DNA of 64,000 nt, from NCBI GenBank assembly GCA_020853525.1, contig JADYYS010000033.1, positions 1 through 64,000 on the forward strand. Direction: 5' to 3'. Shown piece by piece: positions 15,391-18,579 of this stretch; the first letter of the stretch is position 1; the number at the start of each line of letters is the position of its first letter. The position numbers and the translations under genes are program-made. Below the pieces are notes generated by a model. The model worked only from the letters and a program-made list of their open reading frames with translations. It was not told the origin of the DNA and searched no databases. The stretch is from Ardenticatenales bacterium (GTDB lineage: Bacteria; Chloroflexota; Anaerolineae; Epilineales; Epilineaceae).

Positions 15391-16317
15391 CTACGCCCCC
15401 GTCGCCACCCCACGCCCCGGATCGACGATCCACTCCGACCACGACCCCGCGTACAGTCGCGGCAGCGGCCGTCCGGCGTGCGCCGCGGCCAGCACGAGGT
15501 GGGCGGCGGTCACGCCCGAGCCGCAGTAGACGATCGCCACCGCCGGGTCGGCACCGGCCAGCGCCGCGTCGAAGCGGGCGCCGAGCACATCCGGCGGCAA
15601 GAAGCGGCCGTCCGATCCGATGCCGCCCGCGAACGGCATCGACACCGCGCCCGGGATGTGCCCGGCCACCGGATCGATCGTCTCGTTCTGCCCGGCGAAC
15701 CGGTCCGCCGCCCGCGCGTCCAGCACGCGCACCGCGCCGCCTGCCGCAGCCGCCGCCGTCACATCGGCGTCGACGACCATCCCCGGACGGGGGCGCGCCA
15801 CGAACGTCCGCGCCGCGCGGTGCTCGACGCCGCCGCGCACCGCCTGCCCGGCCGCCAGCCACGCCGGCCAGCCGCCGTCGAGAACCGCGACGGCGTCGTG
15901 CCCGAGCCACTTCAGCAGCCACCACAGCCGCGCCGCGAACGCGCCGCCGACGTCGTCGTAGGCCACGACCTGGGTCGCCGCGTCGATCCCCCAGCCGCCG
16001 AGCGTTGCGGCCGCCGCCTCGGGCGTCGGCAGCGGGTGGCGGCCGGTGACGCCGGGGACGGTGGGCGCGCTGAGGTCGTTGTCGATGTGGGCAAAGACGG
16101 CGCCGGGGATGTGCGCCTCGGCGTACGCGGCCGCGCCCCAGGCCGGGTCGGCGAGGCGGTGGCGGCAGTCGACGATGGCCACGTTGGCGACGTCGCCTTC
16201 ACCCGCGTCGATGCCCACGTCGATGCGCGCGGCGAGCGCACGGACGTCGACAAGCGTCTTCCACGGCTGCGGCGACGGGGCGGGCTCGGACGGTGGGCGA
16301 TCGAGCGGCGTCGTCAT
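15391..16317 (-). CDS. Two-domain rhodanese (thiosulfate/mercaptopyruvate sulfurtransferase)
   Basis: A 308-residue protein with two rhodanese domains. The N-terminal non-catalytic domain includes VAIVDCRHRLADPAWGAAAYAEAHIPGAVFAHID, and the C-terminal catalytic domain holds the active-site loop VIYCGSGVTA-type sequence (here VYCGSGVTAAH, about residue 260) and HIPGAVSMPF. CGSGVTA is the loop usual for thiosulfate-class enzymes. It transfers sulfane sulfur between donors and thiophilic acceptors in the cytoplasm. ATG 16317 is preceded by TAGAAT at eight bases. It lies directly downstream of the predicted selenoprotein on the same strand. Confidence 0.9.
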   Translation of the reverse strand: MTTPLDRPPSEPAPSPQPWKTLVDVRALAARIDVGIDAGEGDVANVAIVDCRHRLADPAWGAAAYAEAHIPGAVFAHIDNDLSAPTVPGVTGRHPLPTPEAAAATLGGWGIDAATQVVAYDDVGGAFAARLWWLLKWLGHDAVAVLDGGWPAWLAAGQAVRGGVEHRAARTFVARPRPGMVVDADVTAAAAAGGAVRVLDARAADRFAGQNETIDPVAGHIPGAVSMPFAGGIGSDGRFLPPDVLGARFDAALAGADPAVAIVYCGSGVTAAHLVLAAAHAGRPLPRLYAGSWSEWIVDPGRGVATGA

Positions 16318-16378: not shown

Positions 16379-18469
16379 CTACCGAAGCAGGGCGGTCGGG
16401 GCCTCTTTGGCCAGTTCCGCTTGGACCGCCGCCAGCAAGCCGTCGGGGTCGTACTCACGGGAGACGTAGGCGATCTTGCCGTCCTTGCCGACGACGACGT
16501 CGACCGGGTAGGGGTTCAGCCCTTTGAAGTTCTTCACGAGCGCCTTGTACGTCGGCGTGTCGGGGCTCTCGAGCCCGATCGGATACGTGACCCCGCTCGA
16601 CGCGGTGAACGCCTGCACGCCGTCGGCCGCATCGCCGTTCGGATCGATCGCCGCCACCACCACGCCCTGATCCTTGAACTTCGTCCAGATCCGATCCTCG
16701 ATGTCTGGCAACTCCAGACTGCAGACCGGTCAGAAGGTGGCGAAGTACGCCAACACCTGCACATTCCCCGTTCCCTCGGCGGTCGACCACTCGGAGCCGT
16801 CGAGGAGCGTGACCTTGGTCTCGGGCAGCGTGCGCCCGATGCCGAGGCCCTCGCGGTTGACGGTCAGATAGGCGGTTCGCTTCGGTTGGTCGGGATCGTC
16901 CGACCAGATATGGAGGTTGCTCCACGCGGTGTCGGTGGCGGCGGCGGTGTAGCTGAGCTGCAGCGTCGTGCTCATGCCCGGCCCGACCTGGACCTGCTCG
17001 GGGCTGACGGTGAAGGCCTCGCCTTCCGTCCAGTTGCCGAACAGGTTCAGCGGCGCCGTGCCCTGGTTCGTCACCATGAGCGGCACGGTCCTCGTCTCGC
17101 CGGCCGCCACGAGGCCGAAGTCGATCGTGTTCGCGTCCTCCGGCAGGAGCAGGTTGGGCGCCGTGCGGTCCGCCAGCATCCGGTAGCTGTAGAGCACCCA
17201 CCAGTTGCCGATGAAGACGATGTCCTCATGGGCGGCGATGCCGAGGTTGCGCACCGTCACGGGCGGGCGCCCGGTGTCCAAATCGCCCGCGTTCGCGCCG
17301 TACGTCGACTGCTGGGTCTGGCGCGCCGCGCCGATGAACTTCGGCGCGGTCGGATCCGACACGTCGTAGGCCCGCGCATCGTTCCAGGCGGCCACGAAGG
17401 CGCGGCCGGCCGAGTAGTCGACGCGGATGGCCGTGCCGGGCATGGGGGCCTGACCGACGACCTTGGGCGCGGTGGGGACCGAGGCATCGACGAGAACGAG
17501 GCCTGCCGAGCCCGCCGCGACGTAGGCCATCGTTCCATCGACCGCCAAGCCGCGCGCCACGCCGCCCGTGTCGGCCTTGCCGAGGAGCCTCGGCACCGTC
17601 GGGTCGGTCACGTCCACCGTGACGAGCTCGCCGGCCAGGGTCGTGAGGTACGCCGTCGTGCCTACGACACGCAGGCCCCACGTGCTGCCGATGTCCTTCA
17701 GCTCGCCGACGCGCGAAACGACGTTCGTCGCCGGATCGCGCTCGTAGACGCCGAGCCCGTCCTTGGCCAGCGCGACGTAGATGATCCCGTCGGCGACGTC
17801 GATGCCTTCATAGCTGACGCCCGGCTCCTGGAGGACCGGGATCTGCTCGGGCACCATCTTCTTGTCGTCTTTGGGGTCCGTCTTGGAGATGTCCCAGCCG
17901 CTCAGGAACGCCGGGTTGCTGAGGTTGCCGCGGTGGGTCGTGTAGACGATGTCACCGTCCCAGGCCAGGTGGATGCAGCCGGGACTGCGCTCGTCGTCCG
18001 GCACCTTGTGCTTGATGTTCTGCGCCAGGTAGGTCATGTTGGCGGGGTCCTTGGCGTTCACGACCCCGAACGTGTAGCTGCACTGGAACAGCTTCTGGTC
18101 GCTCGCCCGATAGCGGACCTCGTCGACGTGAAGATGGGTCTTCTCGCCCTCAAGCCGCTGCAGGCGGGCCAGCGGCGGCAGATACTGCCCGGGCGTGAGC
18201 CGCACCTCGGCCCGTTCCTCCGGCGCCGCGTCCCCCTGCCCTTCGCCGCCCCTCGCCTCGCCGCCGGGCACACCGTCGCCGGTCGTACCCGCCGACGATG
18301 CCGGCGCCACCGCGTCGGGCGCCGTCGCCGCCGGCGCCAGATCGTTCGCGGCGCATCCCGCCAGCAGCATCACCGCCAGCACGCCGATCAGCGCCGCCCG
18401 CAGCCGTACCGCCCGGCCGGCGGCCGAACCTGGGTCCAACCGCCGAAGCGATTGCCGCATCCGTTTCAT
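16379..18469 (-). CDS. Predicted selenoprotein: LVIVD propeller lipoprotein with Ig-like and Sec-redoxin (UPVC) domains
   Basis: One reading frame of 696 codons interrupted only by TGA at 16730-16732 (codon 580). Order: signal peptide with lipobox LLAGC (Cys39); LVIVD-type beta-propeller (about 95-430; VTVDVTDPTVPRLLG, LVLVDASVPTAPKVVG, ARAYDVSDPTAPKFIG); Ig/ASH-like domain (about 440-545); TlpA/AhpC-type redoxin (about 550-696). The UGA falls at the first Cys of the family motif FATxCPxC: FATF-UGA-PVCSLELP, with Cys583 kept and a later cis-Pro segment NPYPVDVVVGKDG. A SECIS-like hairpin follows. UGA is an ordinary stop elsewhere here, so recoding must be local. GGAAGGA precedes ATG 18469. 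Likely an extracytoplasmic membrane-attached redox enzyme. Alternatives are a nonsense mutation or a sequencing error (TGC to TGA); the exact catalytic position argues against these. Confidence 0.8.
16703..16732 (-). promoter_or_regulatory. UGA codon and bacterial SECIS-like hairpin
   Basis: After UGA (16732-16730) come ten bases, then GUCUGG (16719-16714), loop AGUUG (16713-16709) and CCAGAC (16708-16703), a perfect six-pair stem. The loop begins 16 bases after UGA and has G as its second base. Both properties fall in the published bacterial SECIS pattern (loop 16-37 bases from UGA, a G in the first two loop positions). Confidence 0.65.
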
Positions 18470-18534
18470 GTCGGATCCTTCCTGGAAGTGGTGGGTCAAC
18501 GCTGCACCGCAACGTCGGGCCACATGGCCGCGTC

Positions 18535-18579
18535 GCATCGACAAGGCAAGTATCGACAAGGCAAGCATCGTCAAGGCAA
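18535..18579. repeat. Three 15-base direct repeats upstream of the selenoprotein gene
   Basis: GCATCGACAAGGCAA, GTATCGACAAGGCAA and GCATCGTCAAGGCAA follow one another exactly, 66 bases before the lipoprotein start codon (minus strand), in the 315-base gap 18470-18784 between it and the divergent OsmC-like gene. The rest of that gap holds a CATACT box (18743-18748) and nothing else I recognise. The repeats could be regulator sites or a simple tandem expansion. Confidence 0.8.

Follow-up and report, generated by a model that had tools for sequence, protein, structure and literature searches.

A SECIS-like hairpin follows the in-frame UGA of a predicted UxxC redoxin selenoprotein in an Ardenticatenales bacterium

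Does the hairpin that follows an in-frame UGA on this Ardenticatenales contig act as a bacterial SECIS element, and is the codon read as selenocysteine? The window, by which we mean the whole 64,000-nt stretch of DNA that was analysed, carries on its minus strand a gene whose predicted start is an ATG at 18469 with AGGAAGGA ahead of it, and which runs to a stop codon at 16381-16379 with a single in-frame UGA at 16732-16730. Standard ORF calling divides the region at this UGA into two frames, 16730-18574 and 16379-16711. When the gene is read through, Pfam places LVIVD repeats, an ASH/Ig domain and a C-terminal redoxin domain along the protein in that order (Table 1), while the N-terminal MLLAGC reads as a predicted lipoprotein signal. 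An NCBIfam match to a choice-of-anchor D domain stayed below the cut-off, and identity as ResA (NF002854) was rejected, the score being 47.8 bits against a curated cut-off of 170. Alignment of the FUPVC of the redoxin domain to the WCPPC of class homologues shows that the UGA occupies the first Cys of CxxC, and the CxxC of the solved structures 2ls5 and 4nmu also aligns with the UGA site. With a PF00578/PF08534 domain and a UGA at the first CxxC cysteine, the protein is predicted to belong to the UxxC redoxin and Prx-like selenoproteins. Next to it on the minus strand lies a gene for a rhodanese-domain protein with two Pfam stretches (15391-16317), whose start is separated by about 60 nt from the selenoprotein gene upstream of it; since the two are so close and share a strand, they may form an operon.

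Table 1. Features of the predicted selenoprotein gene and its hairpin (positions in the window)
Feature	Position	Strand	Basis
Selenoprotein gene, 696 aa with U	16379..18469	minus	predicted
LVIVD repeat, top-scoring copy	17453..17566	minus	PF08309 E 2.3e-13, Pfam
ASH/HYDIN-type Ig-like domain	16877..17134	minus	PF22544 E 3.8e-9, Pfam
AhpC-TSA/redoxin domain, interrupted by UGA	16466..16840	minus	PF00578 E 4.5e-13, Pfam, 828-aa read-through
In-frame UGA, predicted selenocysteine codon, position 1 of UPVC	16730..16732	minus	alignment to homologues and solved structures
Both stems together; lower stem of 7 bp, two of them G-U, between 16729-16723 and 16697-16691	16691..16729	minus	RNA folding
Upper stem-loop of the predicted SECIS, GUCUGG-AGUUG-CCAGAC, 6 bp, 5-nt loop	16703..16719	minus	direct reading, folding, nulls
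Apical loop AGUUG, G second, 16 nt from UGA	16709..16713	minus	direct reading

Reading the minus strand onward from the UGA gives CCGGTCTGCA (10 nt), GTCTGG (16719-16714), AGTTG (16713-16709) and CCAGAC (16708-16703). The initial annotation had described a perfect six-pair stem beginning 10 nt after the UGA and closed by the loop AGUUG, with the loop 16 nt from the UGA and G in its second position, and direct reading bears out the stem, the loop and all of these distances. RNA folding adds a 7-bp lower stem, absent from that description, which starts directly after the UGA. The UGA together with the next 40 nt folds with an MFE of -18.7 kcal/mol, compared with a shuffle mean of -11.6 (z -2.81, equalled by 1 of 200 shuffles), and the isolated upper hairpin with -7.7 kcal/mol.

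The bacterial SECIS model specifies a loop of 3-9 nt, a stem of 4-16 bp and a G within the first two nucleotides of the loop, with a distance of 16-37 nt from the UGA and an MFE at or below -7.5 kcal/mol (PMC13188914). The hairpin lies within each of these limits (5 nt, 6 bp, G second, 16 nt), and so do the energies of both the upper hairpin and the full element. Set against the consensus of the bSECISearch type (PMC13188914), it shares the 5-nt loop, the G in second position followed by U and the 6-bp upper stem, but its spacing is at the lower limit and the upper hairpin only narrowly passes the energy threshold. The earlier claim that these are the published features of bacterial SECIS elements is therefore correct in every particular, but in GC-rich DNA the features do not discriminate. 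Model-compliant hairpins follow 169 of the 993 other TGAs in the window (~17%), and at least six Watson-Crick pairs with a 3-5-nt loop are found at 34 of the 993. Because the model is this permissive in a GC-rich window, where a hairpin of equal or greater stability occurs at 163/993 other TGAs, geometry by itself is insufficient evidence, and we rejected a geometry-only SECIS scan as proof given that 17% of window TGAs reach the energy threshold.

A more demanding comparison holds the protein constant. We kept the peptide PVCSLELPDIEDRIW fixed and drew its codons from the usage of five local genes in 5000 recodings. The observed energy of the full fold was reached by 0.1% of these synonymous recodings, a SECIS-type hairpin as good as the one observed appeared in 0.08%, and any model-compliant hairpin at or below -7.5 kcal/mol in 1.6%; the MFE of the first 27 nt after the UGA, taken alone, was not significant against the same null. 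Ranked by fold z-score under the synonymous null, the site after the UGA comes seventh of 680 codon positions along the gene. The structure thus exceeds the synonymous-codon null, with p about 0.001. The codons responsible are rare in local usage: AGT makes up 3.5% of Ser codons, TTG 8.6% of Leu codons and CCA 2.3% of Pro codons. AGT with its T and CCA with its A each complete a stem pair, and TTG supplies the U's of the loop. The proposal that hairpin and redoxin motif are encoded together is in keeping with this, the UGA standing at the first Cys of CxxC and rare synonymous codons building the hairpin beside it.

The genome carries the genes needed for decoding, namely selA, selB, selD and tRNA-Sec (selC, anticodon UCA), and two of its other genes offer a comparison. 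Its formate dehydrogenase alpha gene (fdhA; L268, G000:C27:125776-127803) has one in-frame UGA, in UHAPT, followed by the E. coli-like hairpin GUGGCC-GGUCU-GGUCAC with a 6-bp stem, a 5-nt loop and a spacing of 18. The redoxin hairpin has the same stem and loop lengths close to the UGA, and differs in its loop (AGUUG rather than GGUCU) and its spacing (16 rather than 18). The selD gene also has one in-frame TGA, with a candidate hairpin GGGCC-CGGA-GGCCC at spacing 16. The tRNA-Sec gene itself (L001, 1501-1596) lies about 90 nt downstream, on the same strand, of a gene for a TlpA-like CxxC thioredoxin (547-1413).

In E. coli fdhF, a 17-nt upper stem-loop stands 11 nt from the UGA, its loop residues G23/U24 are conserved, and a bulged U17 in the upper stem is required (PMC8659212). 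The redoxin element resembles it in having a 17-nt upper stem-loop some 10-11 nt past the UGA, a G-U in the loop and a lower stem adjacent to the UGA; its loop G is two positions nearer the UGA, and its six-pair stem is continuous, without a bulged U17. These comparisons bear on the best-placed alternative, in which the UGA is indeed a selenocysteine codon but SelB recognises a different or larger fold, the 6-bp stem being partial or incidental. In its favour, the two-stem fold is far stabler than the upper hairpin (-18.7 versus -7.7 kcal/mol), and the energy of the first 27 nt is unexceptional. Nevertheless the upper hairpin is itself rare among synonymous recodings, it matches the geometry of the fdhA element in the same genome, and in the E. 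coli model the arriving ribosome unwinds the lower part, after which selenocysteine is inserted, release factor 2 acting on failure (PMC4513850). We regard recognition of another fold as improbable.

If the hairpin serves selenocysteine insertion at the UGA, homologues with UGA and with Cys should differ in it, and the initial annotation had proposed this comparison. No orthologue with the same architecture and a UGA was found in the organism's own order, in 396 class genomes or in a contig scan, and one match with a single TGA (G006:C130) was rejected for want of a convincing UxxC site. The comparison was therefore run on distant homologues, thioredoxin-fold genes of the class: 143 in total, of which 71 have TGA at the active site and 72 have TGC/TGT there. 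Removal of near-duplicates and addition of our gene to the UGA side left 35 UGA and 56 Cys genes. A SECIS-type hairpin at or below -7.5 kcal/mol is present in 27/35 UGA genes (ours included) versus 2/56 Cys genes, and the mean best hairpin in this non-redundant set is -8.7 versus -0.9 kcal/mol, so on these distant homologues the comparison came out in favour of the hairpin; its p-values are indicative only, since related sequences were taken as independent and the register was picked post hoc. Among the UGA genes stem pairs vary on both sides, one position, for instance, being GC, CG or TA depending on the gene, and the same columns pair poorly in the Cys genes. The Leu of the loop is encoded by TTG in 26 of 27 UGA genes versus 10 of 39 Cys genes. 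Loop sequences in the homologues (AGUU, GUU, GGU) are similar to our AGUUG, but their hairpins stand 25-26 nt from the UGA rather than 16 nt, and in this spacing our element is nearer to E. coli fdhF. Selenoproteins of the thioredoxin fold with UxxC or UINC are widespread in the class (L119-L126, L128-L149, L190-L266), with loops that are mostly AGUU or GUU/GGU. Finally, one TlpA-like gene with Cys (TGT) at its active site (L236, G382:C213) retains a SECIS-like hairpin, ATTCCCTG-GGT-TAGGGAAT, at the site used by its UGA relatives, and looks like a recent switch from Sec to Cys.

Could the UGA instead be a nonsense mutation, or a sequencing error, for TGC or TGT in an ordinary Cys redoxin, with the hairpin there by chance? 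TGA is one base from either codon, 43 of the 45 near homologues of the redoxin domain (near-duplicates removed) have Cys at this position, and chance hairpins are common in the window; among these 43 closest Cys homologues, 2 pass the hairpin criteria. Such an accident, however, would need to strike the exact residue at which Sec takes the place of Cys, in a genome with the full Sec machinery and beside a hairpin that is improbable under synonymous recoding. Furthermore, codon score and GC3 show the same level over the 116 codons that follow the UGA as before it; this persistence makes a decayed gene, or an open frame that arose by chance, less likely, and the continuing coding signal speaks against mutation or error, which we judge very unlikely. 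Least probable of all is an ordinary stop codon followed by a separate gene, which agrees with the two ORFs of the standard call but has the UGA cut a single continuous redoxin match at its active site, leaving both halves incomplete.

Altogether, since the element agrees with the SECIS model, the Sec machinery is present, the UGA stands at the first Cys of CxxC, rare codons build the stem and loop, and UGA and Cys homologues contrast as they do, we read the hairpin as the bacterial SECIS element of a UxxC redoxin selenoprotein, with a probability of about 0.92. Binding of the SECIS by SelB with GTP and Sec-tRNA is established in E. coli (PMC4513850). Here, SelB with GTP and Sec-tRNA-Sec would bind the G-U-containing apical loop AGUUG and bring selenocysteine to the UGA, which precedes the upper stem by 10 nt; by analogy with E. 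coli, the lower stem is presumably unwound when the ribosome arrives. The product would be a membrane-anchored LVIVD-Ig-redoxin protein with the redox motif Sec-Pro-Val-Cys, probably a thiol/disulfide or peroxide reductase.

The kind of protein and element is already known, and this gene is a further example: Prx-like thiol:disulfide oxidoreductases and Redoxin family selenoproteins (PF00578/PF08534, UxxC) are listed families (PMC13188914, table 1), with the same Pfam domains and UxxC motif as ours. In ours, unlike them, LVIVD repeats and an ASH/Ig domain precede the redoxin within a single predicted lipoprotein. This LVIVD-Ig-redoxin lipoprotein architecture may be unreported, a literature search having returned, as a weak negative, no paper pairing LVIVD with selenocysteine. 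More tentatively, and at somewhat less than even odds, the gene might found a new selenoprotein subfamily of surface lipoproteins joining LVIVD, ASH/Ig and Sec-redoxin parts, within a class whose thioredoxin-fold selenoproteins share an (A)GUU-type SECIS loop that can occupy varying codon offsets.

Because standard gene callers split the gene at the UGA, its product is probably annotated wrongly. Read whole, it is a further predicted selenoprotein, and we found no report of its domain architecture. Among some 140 thioredoxin-fold genes from a single class, silent codon choice tracks a SECIS hairpin that is largely missing where Cys is encoded. If the new subfamily and its class-wide loop type hold true, the loop preference of the lineage's SelB would be readable from silent codon choice.
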